From: a virus
Virus record (IMG/VR): IMGVR_UViG_3300025308_000007
Location: 1-45,229 of that record
Strand: one strand, 5' to 3'
Length of the DNA: 45,229 nt
A program made the translations under genes and the position numbers. Numbering within the stretch: position 1 is the stretch's first letter; the number at the start of each line of letters is the position of its first letter. Below are positions 7,122 to 45,229 of the stretch, one piece after another. The notes beneath the pieces are model-generated. The model searched no databases. It was not told the origin of the DNA and saw only the letters and a list, made by a program, of their open reading frames with translations.

Positions 7122-7575
7122 TCTCTTGCACTCCCTCACCACCCTGTCGCGGCAGCGTTCCCGCCAGGGTGTGAGTTCAGTCTAGGGGGGTACGCAGTCG
7201 GGTATAGCCCCGTGATCAGGGGGTAAAACGCCAACCTGTAAGGGGTGACAGGAACCCATCTGGGGGAGACAGAACCCCCCTTCAGTGGGGCCCACAAATG
7301 CCCCCCAAAAGGGGGAGCTTTCCCGGCCCCGCCCGTGGCCCTATCAGTTCTGGTGTGGCAGCCGGCATCCACCTTAAAGGGGGATGGCCCACCGCCCCCG
7401 ACCCAATGCACACTGAAAAGCAGGCCGGCGCAGTGGTAGCCGCAAGGCGCACCGGACACACGCGACAGCGGAGTGATCGCGCCGGCCTACCCGGTTTATC
7501 AAGGTTGGCCGTCCACAGCAGGTCGGGTTGATAAGTGATGCCCGCAGCGGCAGGCAGTCTTGCGTGGCCTGCCCA
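7122..7575. other. Noncoding region rich in G/C tracts, upstream of the terminase genes
   Basis: About 450 bases without a credible gene. Runs of four to six G or C alternate every 10-25 bases between about 7180 and 7320, forming several possible stems such as CCCCC-aaaa-GGGGG near 7303-7316 and a nearly palindromic block at 7208-7223 around TGATCA. It separates the HNH gene from the small helical gene and the terminase genes. A leader RNA, a terminator or a packaging (cos/pac) site would all fit; the sequence does not decide between them. Confidence 0.55.
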
Positions 7576-12532: not shown

Positions 12533-12927
12533 GCGGCAGTCCTCCGGCTCTTGGCCAGCAGCTCGCCCACGTAGGCCAGCACCTCGGCGCGGTTGGCGGC
12601 GTAGTTGGCCGCCGCCGGGTCTGCGGCTCGCGCCGAGGCCTCCATCGCGTTCAGCAGGTACTCGAAGGGGCGGATGTCGGCCGGCGTCGTCTCGCCCGGC
12701 AGCGTGTCTGGCAGCCCCACCTTCCACCGGGCCAGCAGATCCTGCAGGGTGGCCACGCCCGCATCGCGCGGCACGTTCGATGCGTACTGCGCCACGTCGC
12801 CCGCACCCACCACCAGGATGATGTTGTGCTGCCCGCGGCCCACCAGCGCATCGAAGGCGGCGCTGATCGCGCTCATCACCCGCTGCAGGTTCAGCGCCAC
12901 CGCGTTCACCTGGTCGCGCTTGTTCAT
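12529..12927 (-). CDS. Hypothetical helical protein
   Basis: 132 aa from ATG 12927 (MNKRDQVNAVALNLQ). A helical N-terminus is followed by LVGRGQHNIILVVGAGDVAQYASN, resembling a short nucleotide-binding-like strand-turn, and then a helical C-terminus (NYAANRAEVLAYVGELLAKS). No family recognised. ATGA overlaps on both sides. Confidence 0.65.
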   Translation of the reverse strand: MNKRDQVNAVALNLQRVMSAISAAFDALVGRGQHNIILVVGAGDVAQYASNVPRDAGVATLQDLLARWKVGLPDTLPGETTPADIRPFEYLLNAMEASARAADPAAANYAANRAEVLAYVGELLAKSRRTAA

Positions 12928-13376
12928 GACGCCCCCCGCATCGCATCGTCGATCGCGGCGCGCAGGTCGGCGCCCGTGCCGATCGTCTCGCCGTCCACGT
13001 CCTGCAGATCGAACACCGCGGCCGCGCCGGGCTCGGCCGGGTACCACTCGTAGATCGTCAACTGGGCCTGCGCCTCCAGCCAGTTCAGCCGGGTGCTGTC
13101 CTTGGGGCCGTCGTCGCGGTCGGCTGGGTCGTCGCCATCCGCCGCAGCGCGGCTGTTCCAGGCTTGCTCCAGGTCTTGCAAGGTGGCGCCGGACACCTCG
13201 GGCATGGCCCGGCATTCCTTGCCCTCGCACATGGCGAAGTAGTGGCTGTTCGTGAGGTCGACCGGCTCGCGCTCTAGCACAAATGGCGCAGCGCCGCAGA
13301 ATGGGCAGCCCTTCAGGCTGAGGCTGCAGATGGACAAGGCGGCCTGCGCCGCTGCTGTGGTGGCGAGGTCGTTCAT
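12924..13376 (-). CDS. Lar-like zinc-ribbon protein with C-terminal extension
   Basis: 150 aa from ATG 13376 (MNDLATTAAAQAALS). Residues about 20-75 form a Lar-type zinc ribbon: LKGCPFCGAAPFVLE, then FAMCEGKECRAMPEV, ending in the family-typical DLEQAWNSRA. It is closer to the consensus than the gene at 8325-8651. An acidic C-terminal domain (TRLNWLEAQAQLTIYEWYP) follows that is not part of Lar. Restriction alleviation is the role known for the family founders and is only inferred here. It lies second after the first structured leader. Confidence 0.72.
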   Translation of the reverse strand: MNDLATTAAAQAALSICSLSLKGCPFCGAAPFVLEREPVDLTNSHYFAMCEGKECRAMPEVSGATLQDLEQAWNSRAAADGDDPADRDDGPKDSTRLNWLEAQAQLTIYEWYPAEPGAAAVFDLQDVDGETIGTGADLRAAIDDAMRGAS

Positions 13377-13651
13377 TGCAGGCTCCCTTCCTGCTCGGTG
13401 CCCTGCAGCAGCGCCAGGGCCTCGAACGCCTGCGCCACGTTGTCGGCGATGGGCAGCAGCAGCGCGCGCAGGTCGTGCGGCTTGATCGGGTGGGTGTCGT
13501 CGGCGCCGGCCAGCAGCCCGACCAGGGCCTGCAGCGCGCGGTGCGCGTCGTGCATGTCGGCGTCGATCTCGTCGACGGTCGGGCCGATCGCGGCCCAGGT
13601 GGGGGCGAACGGGCGCAGTTGCTGCGCCTCGGGTGCGGTGGTGTCAGCCAT
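13373..13651 (-). CDS. Small helical protein controlled by structured leader 1
   Basis: 92 aa from ATG 13651 with GGAGG 6 nt upstream. Mostly alpha-helical (HRALQALVGLLAGADD, then LRALLLPIADNVAQAFEAL). Function unknown; about 40% identical by eye to the product at 6885-7121. It is the first gene after the C4/CI-like RNA element (13652-13926), whose b' segment ends directly at its Shine-Dalgarno sequence, so its translation is probably the direct target of that RNA. In P1 the equivalent position is held by icd/ant. It starts the coupled gene train that ends with the packaging genes. Confidence 0.72.
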   Translation of the reverse strand: MADTTAPEAQQLRPFAPTWAAIGPTVDEIDADMHDAHRALQALVGLLAGADDTHPIKPHDLRALLLPIADNVAQAFEALALLQGTEQEGSLQ

Positions 13652-13890
13652 GGTTGGCCTCCAAGCGGTGCGGTCTACAACAACCGACGCCATGGCTGCA
13701 AAACGATGGCGGCGGCTCGACGGGTTTGCAGACCGGGCACCGCTTGCGCGAACCGGCAGGGCTTGCGCCCTCCCGCCGAGCCGCCATAAAGGGGGCGCGA
13801 ACGAAAAAGCCGCAGTACCTGTGCGGTGGCTGCGGCTCTCGCTGCAGCGGTGCTTCGGGCTGCAAAACCCGATCCCTGATGAGCAGGGAT
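13652..13890 (-). ncRNA. C4/CI-like antisense immunity RNA leader, copy 1
   Basis: Read on the minus strand, this 240-nt leader contains in order: hairpin TCCCTG-ctcat-CAGGGA (13889-13873); sense motif GGGTTTTGCAG (13870-13860); an intrinsic terminator (13836-13804); antisense b AAGCGGTGCCCGGTCT (13745-13730); antisense a CTGCAAACCC (13731-13722); target a' TTTTGCAG (13703-13696); target b' AGACCGCACCGCTT (13676-13663); then GGAGG and ATG 13651. Segment b pairs with b' over 14 bp with a 2-nt bulge, and a pairs with both a' and the upstream sense motif. This is the plan of P1/P7 C4 and P4 CI RNA, where a processed leader fragment blocks translation or causes early termination. It shares its plan with 43451-43681 but has different a/b sequences. 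Confidence 0.75.
13804..13836 (-). terminator. Intrinsic terminator inside leader 1
   Basis: On the minus strand GCCGCAG (13836-13830) pairs with CTGCGGC (13815-13809), with further pairing inside the loop, followed by TTTTT (13808-13804). It lies about 55-85 nt after the predicted transcript start, ahead of the antisense segments. Full-length transcription must therefore pass it, which fits an attenuation mechanism. Confidence 0.75.
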
Positions 13891-13896
13891 GCCGCG

Positions 13897-13926
13897 ACTG
13901 TAGACGCGCGAAAGGCGCAGTGTCAA
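13897..13926 (-). promoter_or_regulatory. Sigma70-type promoter of leader 1
   Basis: TTGACA (13926-13921) and TACAGT (13902-13897) are separated by 18 bases. Predicted transcription starts near 13890, exactly at the first hairpin of the leader. The second leader has the same spacing (TTGCCA-18-TACACT). Confidence 0.75.
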
Positions 13927-13944: not shown

Positions 13945-14517
13945 TCACGCCCCATCGCCCATGCCCGGCAGGGGCTTCTGCTGCAGGATGGGCGCCAGCC
14001 CTTCAGCGGCAGCCGTGTCCATGCCCAGCGCCTCGTCGATGCGCTTGAGGCTCTGCCACATGGCGCGGGCGATGCTGGGGTGCTTCGCATCGCCCAGCTG
14101 GGCCAGCACGCGGTTGCGCTCCTTGATCCACGCCAGCTTGCCGGTGTCAGCACTACCGGCCGAACTGGCGCTGTCGGTGGTCCAGTGTCGGTAAAGCGCC
14201 TCCTCGCACTCTTCCTGGTAGCGCATCATCTTGTCGCGCAGCTCGGGCTTCACCTTGTTCGGTTGCAGCGTGTAAAGCCAGGCCGGGAGCTTGCGCAGGG
14301 GAAGGCAGACCATGGAGCGCAGCTTTCCATCCTCTGCAACCGTCACGATTTCCGTGACGGTTGACCCGAATTTCTCCATCAACTTGATGTGCTGCGGCTG
14401 CCAGGACAGGCCTAAATTGGCCACCACGGTACGCATAACGACATAGGGTTGCCCCTCAAAGTCGGCCAACACCACGGTGTCACCGTGGAACTCAACAGGT
14501 AGTAACTGGGTTCTCAT
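13945..14517 (-). CDS. P22_AR_N-type antirepressor-like protein
   Basis: 190 aa from ATG 14517. The N-terminal 100 residues match the phage antirepressor N-terminal domain: MRTQLLPVEFHGDTVVLADF, then PYVVMRTVVANLGLSWQPQH, and CLPLRKLPAWLYTLQPNKV before a helical YQEECEEALYRHW. The C-terminal domain (about 110-190) is helical and variable, as is usual. Family members include P22 and P1 antirepressors, which inactivate repressors. It lies immediately upstream of leader 1: its stop is 18 bases from the leader's -35, so it may be cotranscribed into the leader or controlled together with it. Confidence 0.82.
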   Translation of the reverse strand: MRTQLLPVEFHGDTVVLADFEGQPYVVMRTVVANLGLSWQPQHIKLMEKFGSTVTEIVTVAEDGKLRSMVCLPLRKLPAWLYTLQPNKVKPELRDKMMRYQEECEEALYRHWTTDSASSAGSADTGKLAWIKERNRVLAQLGDAKHPSIARAMWQSLKRIDEALGMDTAAAEGLAPILQQKPLPGMGDGA

Positions 14518-18564: not shown

Positions 18565-18983
18565 GGCCGCACCGCCTGCATTGCCGCCTGCGCCGGTGCC
18601 GCCACCGGCTCGGGCAGGCCCTTCAGCAGCATCTGGCCAGCGCCCTCGGTGGGCAGATTGGCCCGCGTGCACGCGCCCTTCAGCCGCCACGAATGCGCCA
18701 TGTGCTCCAGCCGGTGGCCGAAGTCGCGGCGCCCGAAGGCCCGGTTCAGCACCTCGTGCACCTCGGGCCAGTTGAGGTTGGCGTCCATGGCCAGCACGTC
18801 GAAGGCCGCGCGCAGCAGCGCTGAATCCAGCCGCCGCAGCTCCGTCAGGTCGAAGGGGAAGCGCCGGCCGTTGTACAGCCCCAGCAGCAGCCGGGCGCAC
18901 ACCCCCGACTGGCCGGTGTCGTTCTGCGCCACGTTCCACAGCGCGATCAGCGCCTCCAGCCGGGTGCGGTCGGTGCTCAGCAT
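18561..18983 (-). CDS. Conserved phage protein (DUF7673-like)
   Basis: 140 aa from ATG 18983 (MLSTDRTRLEALIAL). The pattern GVCARLLLGLYNGRRFPFDL, then TELRRLDSALLRAAFDVLAM, followed by WPEVHEVLNRAFG, is typical of a small phage/plasmid protein family of unknown function. The family name is from memory. It overlaps the end of the recombinase gene by 7 bases. Confidence 0.65.
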   Translation of the reverse strand: MLSTDRTRLEALIALWNVAQNDTGQSGVCARLLLGLYNGRRFPFDLTELRRLDSALLRAAFDVLAMDANLNWPEVHEVLNRAFGRRDFGHRLEHMAHSWRLKGACTRANLPTEGAGQMLLKGLPEPVAAPAQAAMQAVRP

Positions 18984-19678
18984 GGCGCCACCTCATGGGT
19001 GCCTGTCACCTCGGCGACCACACCCGCCGCGCGGCGGGCGGCCTTCTTGGGCATGCGCCCACCGGCGGTGGCCTGCAGCGCCTGCACGTACTCGTCGCGC
19101 GCCAGCTGCGTGTAGATCGCCGTGCTGGCCGCCGACACATGGCCCAGCGCCAGCTGCGCCACCTTCATCGGGTTGGCCGCCCGGCTGCGGTTGATGATGT
19201 TCACCCCCCGCGTGTGCCGCAGCCAGTGCGGGCTCACCCCACCGGCCAGCCCGCCCGCCTGCGCCCAGGCCTTGATGCGCACCTGGTAGCTGCGCACGCT
19301 CAACGCCTTGCCGTCGCGCCCCCAGATCAGCGGCACCGGCGCGTCGGGCTCCAGCGCAGCGCTCTCCTCGCGCTGCAGGGCCAGCAGGGCCAGCAGGCTG
19401 GTGCGCACCGGCTCGGTCACCAGGTACTCATGGCCGCGGCGCTTGCCCTGGCTGTTGGCCTTGCGCTGGGCGGGCGCCACCACCAGCCAGCCGCTGGCCA
19501 GCGCGGCCTCGGCCTGCGCGGCGGTAAAGCTGGCCAGCTCAGAGACGCGTGCCCCAGTCTCGATCATCAGCCGCATCCAGTGGTAGTCGCGCTGCGCCAG
19601 CGGGTCGCTGCTCTGCCGCGCGGCCCGCAGCAGCGCGCGCTGCTCCGTCTCGTTCAAGAATCGCTTCAGCATGTCCAT
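18977..19678 (-). CDS. Minimal tyrosine recombinase (catalytic domain only)
   Basis: 233 aa from ATG 19678, with AAGGAG 6 nt upstream. It has all the catalytic positions of a tyrosine recombinase: R44 in TGARVSELAS, a basic hairpin near K79, H151 and R154 in SPHWLRHTRG, H180 in LALGHVSAAST and Y189 in AIYTQL. It lacks the N-terminal core-binding domain present in the integrase at 1-955 and starts almost at the catalytic fold. It may resolve multimers, act with host or phage partners, or be a regulator; it is not obviously decayed. A third recombinase, of the serine type, is at 41446-43071. Confidence 0.82.
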   Translation of the reverse strand: MDMLKRFLNETEQRALLRAARQSSDPLAQRDYHWMRLMIETGARVSELASFTAAQAEAALASGWLVVAPAQRKANSQGKRRGHEYLVTEPVRTSLLALLALQREESAALEPDAPVPLIWGRDGKALSVRSYQVRIKAWAQAGGLAGGVSPHWLRHTRGVNIINRSRAANPMKVAQLALGHVSAASTAIYTQLARDEYVQALQATAGGRMPKKAARRAAGVVAEVTGTHEVAPC

Positions 19679-19778
19679 GGTCTTCTCCTTGTCGTGCCTC
19701 GTCGGCATCCAGAAACGCACACAGGCCCAGGTAGATGGCGGCCCACAGCACGGCCCCGCCCCACGCACCGGCCCTCAT
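19539..19778 (-). CDS. Possible small membrane protein overlapping the minimal recombinase
   Basis: 79 aa from ATG 19778. The N-terminus MRAGAWGGAVLWAAIYLGL, continuing CAFLDADEARQ, has one plausible membrane segment. The second half lies in another frame of the recombinase gene and looks like shadow sequence. No good ribosome site precedes the ATG. If real, only the first 35 residues or so carry information. Confidence 0.3.
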   Translation of the reverse strand: MRAGAWGGAVLWAAIYLGLCAFLDADEARQGEDHGHAEAILERDGAARAAAGRAAEQRPAGAARLPLDAADDRDWGTRL

Positions 19779-20802: not shown

Positions 20803-21384
20803 TCAGGCCGTGCCACCACCGCCGTCAGTCAGGGCCATCTGCCGCAAGCCCGGGCACAGGCCGACCAGCGGCTGCACCGGCAAGCCCACCCAGCGGCACA
20901 GCTGGCGCAGCTGCGCGTACAGCTGCTCGGCATAGCTGCGCGCCGAGCTGCTGCCCAGCGTCCCCAGCTCGCGGGCGATCAGCCGGCATTCCTTCATGTA
21001 GGCCAGCCGGATCGCGTGGCTCAGTGGCTTCATCTGCTGGGGCACGTCCACGCCATCCAGCACATCGAGCACCCAGCGGCGGAAGGCTGCGGCCACGGCG
21101 GTGCGCGCCAGCATGCCCAGCAGATGGGCGCCGCGCAGGCTGAAGATGCGCACCTGCTGCCGGCCGCCGGCGGTGGGCAGATCGACCACCTGCGTCATGA
21201 CGTCGGAGAACTCGGCGGAGTTGCGGTCGTAGAGCTTCTGCATGTCCTGCCGCGTGTTTTGGTACCCCAAGGCGTCACCAATCTGGTGACCCCTCAGCCA
21301 CGGTTGACCATGCAGGTCAATGACGTTGAACTCGGTGTCTTGGAACTGCAGCGTGACAGCGCTGCTCGAATTCGGGTTGCTCAT
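20803..21384 (-). CDS. BRO-N domain antirepressor-like protein
   Basis: 193 aa from ATG 21384. Residues about 10-115 form a BRO-N DNA-binding domain: LQFQDTEFNVIDLHGQPWLR, GHQIGDALGYQNTRQDMQKL, then RQQVRIFSLRGAHLLGMLA and AAFRRWVLDVLD. A helical C-terminal domain follows. It lies downstream of an Arc-like gene and has its own promoter containing the operator half-site TAGTAC, the position of ant in the P22 immI region. Role inferred: an antirepressor used during induction or superinfection. Confidence 0.83.
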   Translation of the reverse strand: MSNPNSSSAVTLQFQDTEFNVIDLHGQPWLRGHQIGDALGYQNTRQDMQKLYDRNSAEFSDVMTQVVDLPTAGGRQQVRIFSLRGAHLLGMLARTAVAAAFRRWVLDVLDGVDVPQQMKPLSHAIRLAYMKECRLIARELGTLGSSSARSYAEQLYAQLRQLCRWVGLPVQPLVGLCPGLRQMALTDGGGGTA

Positions 21385-32608: not shown

Positions 32609-33538
32609 TCAGGTGTACACGCTGGTCATCTCGTCGTTGCCGACGTTGCGCGCCAGGTGCAGGTCGCACTCCAGCATCAGGATCCCGGCCTCCGACTTGG
32701 CCTTGGGCTTCATCAGCTGCACGCGCGGCAGCGTGCGGGTGATGATGTTGCCGGCTGCCGTGCCGTGCACGATGCTCATGGCCGCGGGCGTGGCCAGCGT
32801 GCAGATGCCCGCCGCGCCCAGAAAGTCCTGCTCGGCCACCAGCGGCAGCTCCACCACCACCTTGCCGCTCATGCGCCGGCCCACGATGCTCACGTCCTCG
32901 CGGCCGGTCAGGTTGCGGTACTGCACGTCGTTGTTCTGGTCGATGGTGAAGCTACTCAACCGCGCCGCATAGCCGCCGATCGTCAGCACCGTGTTGGCCT
33001 TGTTCATGGCCACCGGGCGCGGAATGGTGGGCAGCGTGGGCACGGGCAGCGTGGCATCCACCATCGGGATGTTCAGACCGATCCCCTTGAAGGTCAGGCG
33101 CGGGGCCTTGCGGGCAGTCCAGTTCTCGCTGATAGAGCCGCGGATGCCCACCATCTTCTGCAGCACGCCGTCCATGTAGTAGTACATGGCGCCCGACTCT
33201 TCGCCGGTGCTGATCAGGCTGTAGGTCACGCTCACACCGGCGGCCACCGTCTGCGCCCAGCCCGCCGCGCGCAGCATGGGCCCGTGGTTGGGCGCCGTGC
33301 CGGCGGCACCACCGCCGCACAGCAGCACGTCGAAGCTGATCGTCGACCACACCGCGCCCACGATCATCTCGTTCGAGCCGAACGAGTTCGACACCGGCGT
33401 GTAGTCGTCGGTCTCCATCTCCAGCGGGTTGATGTCGACGTTCTGGGCCACGATCACGTTGGCCACGTTGGTGGGCACCGGGTCGACGCCGTACGTCGCC
33501 TCGGGCTTCCACAGCAGCACCTTCAGTGCGTCTTTCAT
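32609..33538 (-). CDS. Major tail tube protein
   Basis: 309 aa from ATG 33538 (MKDALKVLLWKPEAT). Beta-rich, with repeated strands as in tube proteins (VLLCGGGAAGTAPNHGPMLR, then YMDGVLQKMVGIRGSISENW and CTLATPAAMSIVHGTAAGNI). Position directly before the G/GT chaperone pair is typical. It is longer than lambda gpV, so it may carry an extra surface domain. Confidence 0.82.
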   Translation of the reverse strand: MKDALKVLLWKPEATYGVDPVPTNVANVIVAQNVDINPLEMETDDYTPVSNSFGSNEMIVGAVWSTISFDVLLCGGGAAGTAPNHGPMLRAAGWAQTVAAGVSVTYSLISTGEESGAMYYYMDGVLQKMVGIRGSISENWTARKAPRLTFKGIGLNIPMVDATLPVPTLPTIPRPVAMNKANTVLTIGGYAARLSSFTIDQNNDVQYRNLTGREDVSIVGRRMSGKVVVELPLVAEQDFLGAAGICTLATPAAMSIVHGTAAGNIITRTLPRVQLMKPKAKSEAGILMLECDLHLARNVGNDEMTSVYT

Positions 33539-33544
33539 GGCCGT

Positions 33545-33739
33545 CTACTCCTGCTGGGCCGGCGTTTCTGCCGGCCGGGTGTTGTCGGGTGCCGCGGCGG
33601 CCTCTGCCGGGTCGGGGCTCAGCGTGCCGTCGGCATTGCGCACCCAGCAGCCGCCCTTGGTGGGCATGGCGTGCTGCGGGCTGACCGGCGCGGGTTGTGC
33701 GGCGTCGGCGGTAACGGTCTTGGTCTTGGTCGTGGCCAT
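33545..33739 (-). CDS. Small protein of unknown function upstream of the tail tube gene
   Basis: 64 aa from ATG 33739 (MATTKTKTVTADAAQ). Lys/Thr-rich N-terminus and acidic, Pro/Ala-rich C-terminus around MPTKGGCWVRNADGTL. Probably disordered. It overlaps the holin-like gene stop as TGATG and ends 6 bases before the tail tube gene. Confidence 0.6.
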   Translation of the reverse strand: MATTKTKTVTADAAQPAPVSPQHAMPTKGGCWVRNADGTLSPDPAEAAAAPDNTRPAETPAQQE

Positions 33740-34143
33740 CACGGCTCCCGGTTCGGTGTTGGTGGCAGGTTGGGCGCCTGGCTGGGTGGGTTGATCGTCA
33801 CGCTGATGCCCAGGCGCTGCTTGATCATCAGCAGCACCAGGTCGATGGTGCTGGCCACGCCCATGCCGCTGAAGATGCTCAGCCCCAGCAAGAACGGCAG
33901 GTCGTCGCTGGCCTTGCTGTAGCTCAGCATGAACATCGCCGCGCCCCAGGCCGCGCTGTGCAGCAGCGTGCCCAGCACCACGCGGCTGGTCAGCGTCTGG
34001 TTGCTGCGCAGCAGCATGCCCAGCGCCAGCATGCTGGCGCCGCTGCCACCGATCACCGCGAAGATCAGCCACAGGCTGGTCTCGTCGACCACGCGCTGCA
34101 GGCTGCTCGACGCACCCGACGATGCCGTGCTGCCTTCAAACAT
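33739..34143 (-). CDS. Putative holin (three membrane segments)
   Basis: 134 aa from ATG 34143. Three hydrophobic segments at about 25-45 (WLIFAVIGGSGASMLALGML), 54-73 (RVVLGTLLHSAAWGAAMFML) and 82-107 (LPFLLGLSIFSGMGVASTID), with a polar C-terminus (TINPPSQAPNLPPTPNREP). This is the layout of class I or LydA-like holins. A holin lying between connector and tube genes is unusual, since the lytic enzyme is at 38978. Alternatively it is a membrane protein of unknown role. Confidence 0.6.
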   Translation of the reverse strand: MFEGSTASSGASSSLQRVVDETSLWLIFAVIGGSGASMLALGMLLRSNQTLTSRVVLGTLLHSAAWGAAMFMLSYSKASDDLPFLLGLSIFSGMGVASTIDLVLLMIKQRLGISVTINPPSQAPNLPPTPNREP

Positions 34144-34555
34144 AGAGCGCCTCCAGGGCCATCACGATCCACCCCACCGGCGCCTCCAGGCCGCGGCTGT
34201 AGGCCACGTCCTTCGGGTACACGGCATCCAGCGGTGCCGCCTTGATCGCCCGGCACCAGGTCAACAGGTCTTCTTCGATCGCGGCCTCGGCCTGCTCGAG
34301 CTGCTCGGTGCTGGCGTCGTCGGCCACGCGCAGGTAGCACACCGCGGCGAACTTCAGCGTGCCGTACTCGCCCTCTCGGCCCGAGAAATCGGCCCATCCA
34401 TTGGTGCCCTCGGCCACCAGCGCGATCACGCCCTGCATCAGCAGCGCGTCGCCCAGCTGGGCCGGGTCTTGCAGGCCACGCACCACGTGCCGAGCCGGCA
34501 GCAGTGCCTGCAGCGAAGCCTGGGCAGCGGCCATGGCGGCTTCGCGGTTGCTCAT
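34136..34555 (-). CDS. Tail terminator-like protein
   Basis: 139 aa from ATG 34555 (MSNREAAMAAAQASL). The pattern with GEYGTLKFAAVCYLRVADD and helical EEDLLTWCRAIKA resembles tail terminator or tail-completion proteins (lambda gpU class) by size and position after the gp10-like connector. Assigned by context. Confidence 0.62.
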   Translation of the reverse strand: MSNREAAMAAAQASLQALLPARHVVRGLQDPAQLGDALLMQGVIALVAEGTNGWADFSGREGEYGTLKFAAVCYLRVADDASTEQLEQAEAAIEEDLLTWCRAIKAAPLDAVYPKDVAYSRGLEAPVGWIVMALEALYV

Positions 34556-41445: not shown

Positions 41446-43071
41446 TCACGCGGCCAATCGCCTCATTGATCGTCCTTTGAACGGGTGTGCGAGAAGCACT
41501 CGGCCGGTTCGCAGCAAGCCCACCACGGGGAGCCAATTCTTGGTGCTATGAACCATGGCACCTTGCTCGCGTATGAGGCACTCAGGGTGGTAATCCACCC
41601 GGAGCTCTGCCAGGTCGACCACGATCTCCTTTACGATCGAAGCGACGAAGGCCCGAAGCGCCTTCGGGCTCTCGCAGTCGGCCACCATCTTCCGCATCAC
41701 CGCCACGGCTTCATCGGCTGACACGCTGATCTGGCCCACGATCGGCTCGGGCTCATCCTCGATCTGCACCAGGGCCAGCTCGAGCCGCCGCACCTGGTCG
41801 TTCAGCTCGCGCAGGCGTGGGCCCATCTCGCTGATTCCGGGTGTGTCCTTGCCATGCGTCTCCAGCGCGTCGTACAGCTTGGCACGCCGCCCCTCCACGC
41901 CGCGCAGCTCCAGCACCAGCGCCGATCTGCGCCTGGCGCGATCCTTCACCCAGTCGGCGGCCGCGGTGTCCAGCTGGGCGATCACGCCTCGCAGGTTCTC
42001 GGGCGTGAACACGTGCCGCATCAGCTCGTCCATCATCCAGCGGTCGAAGGCCTCGGCCGGCAGGCGCTTGAACGTGCACTTCTTGCCCTGCAGGTCGCCC
42101 CGGCAGGCGTAGTAGCTGTAGACCTTGCCGGCGCGCCCGGTGCCGGTGGCGATCACCAGCGACGATCCGCACAGCGCGCAGCGCATCAGCCCGGCAAAGG
42201 CGTGCTCGCTGTTGGCAGGAGCGCGGCCCTCGGTGGGCATGCGCTCGGCCAGGCCGCGCTGCACCTGGTCAAACTGCTCAGGCGTCACCAGCTCGTCGTG
42301 GCCCTTCACTCGCACCCACTCGCCCTTCGGCCGCCGGCGCTCGCGCTTGCGGTCGAACCGGTTGAAGATCACCTCGCCCATGTACACCTCGCTCTTCAGG
42401 ATGTGAAGGATCGCGCCCTTGGTCCAGGGCTTGCCGCGCAGGGTCAGCCCCTGCCCGTTCAGATTCGTCGCGATCGCGTAGGCGCCCACCTGGCGCGCGC
42501 TGGCCGCGAACATTGATTGCACCACCGGAGACTCTTCGGGATGCGGCTGCAGCCGCTTGTGCCGGCCATCGGCCGCGGGCACGGTCTGGTAGCCGAACGG
42601 TACCCGCCCGCCCATGAAATAGCCCTCTGAGGCCGCCGAGATCATCGACCGCCTTGTGTCCTTCGACACTTGCCGAGAATAGGCCTCGTCGAAGATCTGC
42701 TGCACGCTGTCGGTAAGCCAGCCCTCGTCGGTCCACAGATCGATGCCCTGGCTGGCGTACACCAGGCGCGTGCCCACCCCGCGCAGCGACTCCTTGTGGA
42801 CGATGGCATCGCGCTGGTTGCGGGCAAACCGGCTCGAGCTCCACACCACCAGGTAGTCGGGCTCGGCAACCCGGCAATGCTCGATCGCAGCCCGAAAGCC
42901 GGGCCGCGCATCGGTGGTGCCGGAGATCCCGTCGTCCCTGTAGACGCCCAGCACCGCCGCATCCAGTTCGAGCACCTTGCGCCTGCAGGATTCGATCTGG
43001 CTGTCCACCGACTGCCCTTCCTCCGCCTGGTTGTCGCTGCTCACGCGTGCGTAGATCACCGCCCGCTTCAT
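41446..43071 (-). CDS. Large serine recombinase
   Basis: 541 aa from ATG 43071 (MKRAVIYARVSSDNQ); an ATG at 43083 adds four residues. The N-terminal resolvase domain (1-150) has the nucleophile region YARVSS (S11/S12), RDDGISGTTDARPGF and VWSSSRFARNQRD. A recombinase domain follows (VPFGYQTVPAADGRHKRLQP, then IATNLNGQGLTLRGKPWTKG). A zinc ribbon is CALCGSSLVI ... CRGDLQGKKC, and a C-terminal coiled coil contains LRELNDQVRRLELALVQIED. Such enzymes integrate phages or invert segments. With the tyrosine integrase also present, it may be a second integration system, an inversion enzyme for the neighbouring fibre gene, or an acquired element. Confidence 0.9.
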   Translation of the reverse strand: MKRAVIYARVSSDNQAEEGQSVDSQIESCRRKVLELDAAVLGVYRDDGISGTTDARPGFRAAIEHCRVAEPDYLVVWSSSRFARNQRDAIVHKESLRGVGTRLVYASQGIDLWTDEGWLTDSVQQIFDEAYSRQVSKDTRRSMISAASEGYFMGGRVPFGYQTVPAADGRHKRLQPHPEESPVVQSMFAASARQVGAYAIATNLNGQGLTLRGKPWTKGAILHILKSEVYMGEVIFNRFDRKRERRRPKGEWVRVKGHDELVTPEQFDQVQRGLAERMPTEGRAPANSEHAFAGLMRCALCGSSLVIATGTGRAGKVYSYYACRGDLQGKKCTFKRLPAEAFDRWMMDELMRHVFTPENLRGVIAQLDTAAADWVKDRARRRSALVLELRGVEGRRAKLYDALETHGKDTPGISEMGPRLRELNDQVRRLELALVQIEDEPEPIVGQISVSADEAVAVMRKMVADCESPKALRAFVASIVKEIVVDLAELRVDYHPECLIREQGAMVHSTKNWLPVVGLLRTGRVLLAHPFKGRSMRRLAA

Positions 43072-43159
43072 GCGCACCACCATAGCGCCGGCGCGGCGCC
43101 GTCTCCAATGACGGCCGGGCCGCTGGTCATCCATGCCGGGCGGCCCGGCCGTTGGTGGG

Positions 43160-43450
43160 TCAGCTGTTCGCCGCGTCGGTGCCCAGGGCGGCCAGCACCG
43201 GAAAGCCCAGTTTCATCGCCGTCTGCACCAGGCCGTCGTTCGCGCACTGCAGCCGGCCGTGCAGGCCCTCCAGCAGCACGCTGAAGCCCTGCAGGTCGTA
43301 GTCGACCCGCGCCACGCTCATGAGAAGCGTGGTGGCCCGCATGCTGCCGATCACGTCGAGCATCAGTTGCTCGAAATCGGTTTCCATCACCACCTGATCC
43401 TCGGTGGTATCCAGGTCGGGGTGTATCGGGGGTGGGGGATTGGTTGCCAT
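43160..43450 (-). CDS. Small helical protein controlled by structured leader 2
   Basis: 96 aa from ATG 43450 with GAGG 5 nt upstream. Proline-rich start (MATNPPPPIHPDLDT), then helical FEQLMLDVIGSMRATTLLMS and RLQCANDGLVQTAMKLGFPV. Function unknown; size and position match the product at 13373-13651 after leader 1, though direct similarity is weak. It is the first gene after the second C4/CI-like leader, whose b' segment overlaps its Shine-Dalgarno sequence, so it is the likely direct target of that RNA. The serine recombinase starts 88 bases further on. Confidence 0.68.
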   Translation of the reverse strand: MATNPPPPIHPDLDTTEDQVVMETDFEQLMLDVIGSMRATTLLMSVARVDYDLQGFSVLLEGLHGRLQCANDGLVQTAMKLGFPVLAALGTDAANS

Positions 43451-43681
43451 GTTGGCCTCGCAGGTGCAGTTGAACAACTGCCACCCACGACGCCAATCGG
43501 GGCGGCAGCCCAAGATGGGTTGGCGTACCGGGCACCCGCGAACGGAACCGGCGAGCCTTGCGGCTCCCCACCCGGGCTGCCATTGAAATGGGCCGGGCGC
43601 GAAAAAGCCGCAATCCTGTCGGTGCGGCTATGCGCCGCGAGTGCAACGGGACGCCAATCCCGATCCCTGATGAGCAGGGAC
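43451..43681 (-). ncRNA. C4/CI-like antisense immunity RNA leader, copy 2
   Basis: On the minus strand: hairpin TCCCTG-ctcat-CAGGGA (43680-43664); sense motif GGGATTGGCGT (43661-43651); terminator (43629-43602); antisense b TTCGCGGGTGC (43542-43532); antisense a GTACGCCAACCC (43528-43517); target a' GATTGGCGTC (43498-43489); target b' GCACCTGCGAG (43467-43457), which overlaps the GAGG ribosome site; then ATG 43450. Segment b pairs with b' over 11 bp including two G-U pairs. The order of parts and the 22-nt block around the first hairpin match leader 1, while a and b differ entirely, so the two RNAs should not cross-regulate. The architecture is that of P1/P7 C4 and P4 CI. Confidence 0.75.
43602..43629 (-). 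terminator. Intrinsic terminator inside leader 2
   Basis: On the minus strand AGCCGCA pairs with TGCGGCT (stem arms 43629-43623 and 43612-43606), followed by a T-run (43606-43602). It has the same place relative to the first hairpin as the terminator in leader 1. Confidence 0.72.
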
Positions 43682-43687
43682 ACCCGC

Positions 43688-43717
43688 AGTGTAGGTGATT
43701 GAAAAGCGCAGTGGCAA
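43688..43717 (-). promoter_or_regulatory. Sigma70-type promoter of leader 2
   Basis: TTGCCA (43717-43712) and TACACT (43693-43688) with an 18-base spacer. Predicted start near 43681, directly at the first hairpin. It overlaps a possible rightward promoter (TTGAAA 43699-43704, CATGAT 43722-43727) for the plus-strand gene at 43749, so the two may compete. Confidence 0.7.
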
Positions 43718-43748: not shown

Positions 43749-44261
43749 TTGAAACGTTCACTTGCCGTCGTGTTGGCTATCTTCTTGCTGCCTGAATTCC
43801 TGTCCGCGAAGACGGCCCAGGAGACGATCAACGACACGCCTTGCTTGTTTGAGTACCGGTATTGGCATCTTGATCAACGGCAATCTCCGGTGTTCGTGCC
43901 ACCACCTCAGTTCACTGCGGAACAGTGCGAGAACGCCAAGCTGGTGAACGAATCCATCGGGGCCTTGCAAGCGCAAGAGAACGCCGACGCGCAGCGCCGC
44001 AATGACGTGGCCAATGCCCGGGCCAGAGCGGCAGCAGCCAAGCGTGCGCAGGCCGCCAAGGTGGCGCGAGATGAGTTTCAGTCCCGGCCAGGTGTGCGTA
44101 TCGGAATGACGGCCGACGACGTCGTCAACCGCACAAACTGGGGCGCTCCACAAAGCCGAAACCGCACCATCACGGCCGGCGGGACGCGCGAACAGTGGGT
44201 GTACGGACCTGGCCAGTACCTGTACTTTGAGAATGGCCGGCTCACCGCCATTCAAGACTGA
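43749..44261 (+). CDS. Secreted BamE/SmpA-like protein (probable moron)
   Basis: 170 aa on the plus strand from a TTG start at 43749, chosen because GAAGGGG lies about 6 nt upstream and the product then begins with a signal peptide (MKRSLAVVLAIFLLPEFLSA). A coiled, Ala/Arg-rich middle (residues about 80-110) is followed by a C-terminal SmpA/BamE-like domain: PGVRIGMTADDVVNRTNWGA, then REQWVYGPGQYLYFENGRL. Periplasmic. Opposite orientation to its neighbours and its own promoter suggest expression in the lysogen, as for lysogenic-conversion genes. Confidence 0.75.
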   Translation: MKRSLAVVLAIFLLPEFLSAKTAQETINDTPCLFEYRYWHLDQRQSPVFVPPPQFTAEQCENAKLVNESIGALQAQENADAQRRNDVANARARAAAAKRAQAAKVARDEFQSRPGVRIGMTADDVVNRTNWGAPQSRNRTITAGGTREQWVYGPGQYLYFENGRLTAIQD

Positions 44262-45040: not shown

Positions 45041-45229
45041 TCAAAGGCGCTTCAGCAGTTCACTGACGGGAGACTTCATCTTGGCCAGCGGCCCGCTCTT
45101 GTCCATCACCCGGGTGCGACGGCGCATGCTCATGGCCGTGTAGATCGCGGTGCTCTTGGGGTCACTGTGCCCCAGCAGGTCCTGACGGGTGATCAGGTCG
45201 ACGTCGTCCTCGGCCAGCTCCACGCCGAA
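45041..45229 (-). CDS. int: Integrase C-terminal part (joins 1-955 through the circle)
   Basis: Encodes the end of the tyrosine integrase, including H297 of LLGHSDPKST, the nucleophile Y306 and the terminal KSPVSELLKRL-stop at 45041. Bases 45103-45229 duplicate 1-127, so the complete gene is 45041-45102 followed by 1-955 on the minus strand. Confidence 0.95.
   Translation of the reverse strand, partial: FGVELAEDDVDLITRQDLLGHSDPKSTAIYTAMSMRRRTRVMDKSGPLAKMKSPVSELLKRL
45103..45229. repeat. Terminal direct repeat, right copy (circle overlap)
   Basis: Identical to bases 1-127; see the left copy. One of the two should be removed when the genome is closed into a 45,102-bp circle. Confidence 0.95.

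Follow-up and report, generated by a model that had tools for sequence, protein, structure and literature searches.

What kind of RNA lies between the Ant-type gene and the 92-aa gene (p92) of an uncultivated virus, and how far along the genome does its control reach? The window, the 45,229-nt stretch of DNA analysed here, is IMG/VR record IMGVR_UViG_3300025308_000007. The initial annotation, made from the letters alone, had proposed (i) that positions 13652–13926 hold a C4-type antisense RNA, and (ii) that this RNA sets immunity and gates the gene train from 13651 down to the packaging genes. The first proposal is borne out by the analysis below, and the second is not.

In a Rfam scan of the whole window, copy 1 of the RNA matches the C4 antisense RNA family (RF01695) over model positions 1–87 with 61.0 bits, and a second copy scores 62.4 bits (threshold 45; E 1.7e-9 for copy 1 in the whole window). 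Full-length model alignment and free folding both give the cloverleaf-like fold of the family: a closing stem, two inner hairpins, and a single-stranded a' box after the second. The a' and b' boxes are complementary to a1 and b1 boxes upstream and to a2 and b2 boxes downstream, and this complementarity is specific and covarying. In local searches, the leaders also match c4-a1b1 (RF03163; 13903–13852 in copy 1) with 44.5 and 45.8 bits in copies 1 and 2 (E ~1e-10 for both), under the curated threshold of 46.7, and isrK (RF01394; 13890–13803 in copy 1) with 37.6 and 42.3 bits, under the threshold of 50. Since the boxes pair with their own C4, the a1b1 element of the window probably works like a1b1 despite its sub-threshold RF03163 score; the leaders share the anatomy of isrK, and are not filed as isrK. 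No Rfam family besides these three was matched here. The locus contributes two further members of a known RNA family, carried by one phage, and copy 1 is an ordinary locus for that family.

Copy 1 is, by sequence reading and Rfam scan, a complete C4 module on the minus strand (13926–13652; Table 1). No promoter besides its own (sigma-70 match 10/12) turned up in 1.8 kb, against 0.1 expected from shuffled sequences. The 5' hairpin has a counterpart at the equivalent place in most C4 loci, as judged by eye, and a terminator-like hairpin lies in the a1b1-to-C4 interval of 77 of 113 loci, compared with 8 of 60 shuffled sequences. The computed b'/b2 duplex has an energy of −25.9 kcal/mol, and the predicted pairing stops 6 nt before the p92 start codon, which lies at 13651, 53 nt past the end of C4. 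Folding z-scores are −4.1 for C4 (none of 200 shuffles was equal) and −3.6 for the leader. The promoter, 5' hairpin, sense motif, terminator, antisense boxes and targets all lie at or within a few bases of their first positions, the last target abutting the Shine-Dalgarno sequence. The earlier layout therefore stands in its coordinates, with two amendments: the RNA does not end near 13722, since C4 runs from 13791 to 13705, and the b1 box and the C4 fold had not been described.

Table 1. Coordinates of the two C4 modules and associated genes in the window (lower coordinate first).
Feature	Position	Strand	Remarks
Ant-type gene (P22_AR_N)	13945..14517	-	PF10547, 4.8e-43; directly upstream of the C4 promoter
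Copy 1 −35 hexamer TTGACA	13921..13926	-	sigma-70-like
Copy 1 −10 hexamer TACAGT	13897..13902	-	18-nt spacer from −35
Copy 1 5' hairpin TCCCTG-CTCAT-CAGGGA	13873..13889	-	predicted transcript start; from sequence and fold
Copy 1 a1 hairpin	13856..13871	-	a1 box 13867–13860, complements the a' 7-mer of the copy 1 C4 exactly
Copy 1 b1 box GCACCGCT	13846..13853	-	pairs with AGCGGTGC in the C4 P3 loop
Copy 1 intrinsic terminator	13804..13839	-	would end a short a1b1 (IsrK-like) RNA of ~85 nt
Copy 1 C4 antisense RNA	13705..13791	-	RF01695; b' 13745–13730, a' 13731–13724
Copy 1 a2 target box GTTTTGCAG	13696..13704	-	includes the exact complement of the a' 7-mer
Copy 1 b2 target box AGACCGCACCGCTT	13663..13676	-	abuts Shine-Dalgarno GGAGG, 13662–13658
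p92, 92-aa gene	13373..13651	-	predicted target gene of C4 copy 1
Lar-like (restriction alleviation) gene	12924..13376	-	PF14354, 1.4e-6; phrog_599
Copy 2 promoter TTGCCA-18-TACACT	43688..43717	-	from sequence
Copy 2 leader	43602..43680	-	5' hairpin 43680–43664, a1 hairpin 43662–43647, b1 43644–43636, terminator 43630–43602
Copy 2 C4 antisense RNA	43498..43587	-	RF01695
Copy 2 targets	43456..43497	-	a2 43497–43489; b2 43469–43456, including Shine-Dalgarno GAGG
p96, 96-aa gene	43160..43450	-	predicted target gene of copy 2; followed by the large serine integrase gene, 43134–41446

Copy 2 spans 43717–43451 on the same strand; the start of p96 lies 47 nt past the end of its C4, and the folding z-scores are −2.6 (C4) and −1.7 (leader). 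The ends of the window carry an exact 127-bp direct repeat (1–127 and 45103–45229) inside a tyrosine recombinase gene, which occupies 1063–1 and runs on at 45229–45041. This terminal repeat indicates that the record is a closed circle of ~45.1 kb holding both C4 copies. The idea that the copies stem from two prophages joined in one contig was rejected, because the contig closes on itself via the repeat.

We examined the pairing in a comparison set of 111 other Burkholderiales C4 loci and the two window copies. The 111 loci are most of those found in 55 of 399 sampled Burkholderiales genomes, which often carry several copies, and the same C4 anatomy recurs across them. For 112 loci, the guide (P3 loop through a') was paired with its own and with foreign flanking regions. 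Own guides outperform foreign ones, with median ranks of 0.01 upstream and 0.04 downstream (Wilcoxon p ~1e-19, an optimistic value since the loci are partly related), and for copy 1, the flanks of every dissimilar locus in the set, upstream as well as downstream, pair less well with the guide than its own do. In 77 of 104 loci, the a' 7-mer complements the a1 of the same locus exactly, and in 72 it does so for the a2, while shuffling guides among loci gives means of 7.0 (maximum 15) and 6.4 (maximum 14) matches, respectively; in copy 1, it exactly complements both. The a' box occurs in 35 distinct sequences, and at most of its positions two to four kinds of standard pair are seen. The covariation of boxes among homologous leaders, on which the C4 assignment had been made to depend, is thus present.

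The two window copies are predicted, from their sequences, to be mutually specific and to use different pairing codes. The copy 1 guide reaches −36.3 and −35.4 kcal/mol on its own sites and −27.3 and −20.6 on those of copy 2; the copy 2 guide reaches −36.6 and −31.6 on its own sites and −27.3 and −24.4 on those of copy 1. With a code of its own for each copy, several C4 modules could operate in parallel within a single phage or host. A full guide is shared in none of 208 same-genome C4 pairs; between genomes, C4 pairs share guides almost never either, and hence there is no sign of selection for orthogonality. Within genomes, the own downstream target outdoes every sibling target in only 67% of cases. 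When duplex energies were scanned across the entire window, no additional C4 target stood out; raw duplex energy alone cannot single out targets here, as a genome of 68% GC gives equally stable chance duplexes. Six Burkholderiales contigs carry two C4 modules ~1.4–36 kb apart, and in the two-module pairs read, the a' box or the P3 loop differs.

Where does C4 act? Across the comparison loci, the first gene starts 40–57 nt past the end of C4 in 105 of 111 cases. Predicted b pairing stops within the Shine-Dalgarno zone in 64% of loci when the guide is the locus's own, and in 28% when it is foreign. Both the position of b2 at the Shine-Dalgarno sequence and the near-constant spacing to the start codon speak for the ribosome site as the C4 target. 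An alternative is that pairing of C4 with a2b2 leads mainly to early termination of transcription, rather than to a translation block. This is the mode of the P4 CI RNA, as far as it is described in PMC4825925: an antisense RNA that acts on the flanking seqA and seqC. The likeness to P4, judged by description, extends to an antisense RNA that is cut from a leader and flanked by its targets, and to the genes controlled, in that up to seven of 99 second genes behind Burkholderiales C4 loci match one primase family. Yet in the window b2 lies on the ribosome site in both copies and the primase gene is upstream. We consider attenuation as the main effect unlikely, while noting that attenuation and translation block can follow one another.

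The genes behind C4 are diverse. First genes, chosen by start codon and Shine-Dalgarno score, fall into more than 40 groups without detectable mutual similarity (median 95 aa); as the picking rule is simple, single assignments can be wrong. Domains recognized among 106 first genes (overlapping counts) are Bro-N in nine, Rha in three, AntA in two and ORF6N in two, so that roughly one in six or seven is antirepressor-like, with a few more among second genes. For the most part, then, C4 in Burkholderiales precedes small genes without known function, not antirepressors. The window follows suit: p92 and p96 match no Pfam or PHROG family, and homologues of p92 were absent by sequence, at the sensitivity used, from phage records and viral contigs, apart from one gene, orthologous to its paralogue, that matches weakly. 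This paralogue (35% identity to p92) is an 85-aa gene at 7142–6885 (minus strand); no C4 module was found before it or before its orthologue in one relative (from 13008). The p96 gene is related to the C4-gated gene of a Methylibium prophage. The stop codon of p92 and the start codon of the Lar-like gene share bases (ATGA).

We then compared both C4 regions with those of relatives, found by their primase and by their large serine integrase among IMG/VR contigs. In contigs whose primase is 84–85% identical, the C-terminal part of the Lar-like gene follows ~70–120 nt after the primase gene, with an HNH gene beyond; Ant, C4 and p92 are absent between primase and Lar part in these contigs. At the same place, the window has ~1.4 kb. 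The Ant-type gene of copy 1 was not found in relatives, and C4 gave no match anywhere in the relatives' records, which include fragments and a pair that seems to represent a single population. As the flanking genes occur in relatives without Ant or C4, copy 1 is a 1.4-kb insert of Ant, C4 module, p92 and the start of the Lar-like gene. The Lar-like domain is N-terminal only and lies within the insert, while the C-terminal half is a conserved phage gene, for which reason the Lar-like gene looks like a fusion at the insert border. The place of copy 2 shows a similar difference—~100 nt in a relative versus ~1.1 kb in the window—and here the insert holds a divergent plus-strand gene, the C4 module and p96. 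The Methylibium prophage has the order primase, Lar part, terminase, portal, and its single C4, accompanied by a p96-like gene, sits at yet another location. The modules behave as discrete cassettes with cargo; gain in the window and loss in the relatives both fit.

These comparisons bear on two further readings. Firstly, copy 1 might be an immunity switch of the P1 type, in which C4 silences an operon needed for lytic growth; the gated genes would run from p92 past HNH and terminase as far as portal, with Ant affected indirectly. P1 C4 does control an antirepressor and heteroimmunity (PMC8546580; PMC12197685), an Ant-type gene adjoins copy 1, and from p92 on the genes are co-directional and overlapping. 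Against this, the relatives possess the neighbour genes on either side but neither Ant nor C4, Ant precedes the C4 promoter, and the genes further upstream are co-directional, meaning that the later genes could be transcribed from a start other than the C4 promoter. The same train exists in the relatives and in the Methylibium prophage without C4 at this place and so does not need it; the proposed gating down to the packaging genes fails here. We judge a switch of this type to be quite unlikely; most likely, copy 1 gates only p92 and the Lar-like gene, locally. Secondly, the module could be a remnant, its RNA preserved by recent acquisition and no longer regulating. Both copies are indeed inserts absent from close relatives, but each retains an intact promoter, terminator and cloverleaf and the full set of pairing boxes, and a1, a' and a2 match, which makes a remnant highly improbable.

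P1 itself is one of the closest known systems. Its C4/immI locus (c4, icd, ant) scores 68.8 bits for C4 and 51.0 for c4-a1b1, has the order a1b1, terminator, C4, a2, gene in common with the window, and carries a terminator and a weak isrK match as well. According to work cited in PMC11143913 and PMC8546580, P1 C4 is a stable processed RNA of 77 nt and a substrate of RNase P. The differences lie in the cargo: P1 has icd and ant behind C4, whereas in the window no antirepressor follows a2b2 but p92, without a family, coupled to the Lar-like gene. With its Ant-type gene ahead of the C4 promoter, the window inverts the P1 order, and it has two copies per genome.

A second known system is the isrK region of the Salmonella prophage Gifsy-1. 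Rfam places isrK at 34316–34240, c4-a1b1 at 34329–34277 and C4 at 34214–34131 (69 bits) of the Gifsy-1 record. Both systems have the order isrK, c4-a1b1, C4, an a1 that complements the C4 a' box, a gene start ~55 nt past C4, and an overlapping stop/start pair within the controlled genes; Gifsy-1 has the antirepressor gene anrP directly behind C4, and the window has none there. Along 33406–34316 of Gifsy-1, isrK, C4, anrP and isrJ lie in one row. When 34316 is taken as nucleotide 1, the nucleotides of PMC4825925 fit the sequence: G28 and G31 fall in the loop of a1, the ACGCCAA stretch of C4 (the a' box) holds C159 and C162, and the orf45 start (nucleotide 107) lies inside the 5' end of C4. Judged by its sequence, Gifsy-1 "IsrK" is the a1b1-plus-terminator head of a C4 module.

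PMC4825925 likens IsrK to P4 seqA and reports a stable RNA, STnc1160; C4 RNA is not named there, the region being orf45/STnc1160. Among the papers searched, none was found that links IsrK to C4, and one genome table lists both families without comment. In PMC4825925, native gels and lacZ fusions, together with the compensatory double mutants G28A/C162U and G31A/C159U, established that G28 pairs with C162 and G31 with C159; changes at C162 or C159 lift basal anrP expression from 4 to 484 or 926 units; short IsrK activates in trans; and translation from orf45, starting inside the C4 region, is needed. As the published compensatory mutations fall exactly on the C4 a' box, short IsrK probably acts as a decoy for C4. 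One observation speaks against a plain decoy model: co-expression of the C4-region RNA STnc1160 strengthened IsrK toxicity in Gifsy-1 (PMC4825925).

Together with the published P1 and Gifsy-1 work, the anatomy of the window suggests the following mechanism. The copy 1 promoter (13926–13897) would yield two products: (i) transcripts that stop at the terminator, giving a short, IsrK-like a1b1 RNA, and (ii) read-through transcripts carrying the C4 cloverleaf, which may be cut out or left attached. The a' and b' boxes of C4 would pair with a2 and b2, the latter directly before the Shine-Dalgarno sequence of p92, and so block p92 translation; by way of the stop/start overlap between the two genes, the block would extend to the Lar-like gene. 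The a1b1 RNA would pair with the same a' and b' boxes and mop up C4, such that excess a1b1 releases the block. Copy 2 may act likewise on p96, with a different pairing code. We consider it fairly probable that copy 1 is a self-contained C4 insert in a circular, temperate-type phage genome, blocking translation of p92 and the Lar-like gene with a1b1 as decoy; besides the STnc1160 and orf45 results, the points against it are the sub-threshold a1b1 and isrK matches and the failure of duplex energy by itself to discriminate in a GC-rich genome.

More tentatively, C4 modules in general could be one-promoter, three-part switches—C4, an a2b2 target, and a terminator-ended, a1b1/IsrK-like decoy that neutralizes C4 in trans—that are small mobile inserts with interchangeable cargo and their own pairing codes, a generalization for which and against which we see nearly equal grounds. 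If it is true, Salmonella IsrK is an anti-C4 decoy, and orf45 is largely the C4 RNA itself. The tie between IsrK and C4 makes published IsrK mutants readable as C4 mutants, and offers a direct test of the role of a1b1. The RNA switch type was known already; what the comparison adds are the interchangeable cargo genes and the suggested role of IsrK. C4 control emerges as common in Burkholderiales, mostly with small genes without known function and usually with an upstream decoy-like RNA, and the main value of the work lies in the comparison with relatives and with IsrK more than in the locus itself.

Finally, some features of the circular genome deserve mention. It carries three recombinase genes: that of the large serine integrase (41446–43134) and two of tyrosine recombinases (18977–19768 and 1–1063/45041–45229), one of which sits between head morphogenesis and the copy 2 region. 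The plus-strand gene in the copy 2 insert (43749–44261), divergent from C4, encodes a signal-like N-terminus. A Bro-N antirepressor-type gene (20803–21384, minus strand) adjoins a CII-like gene and, unlike the Ant-type gene of copy 1, is kept in two relatives.
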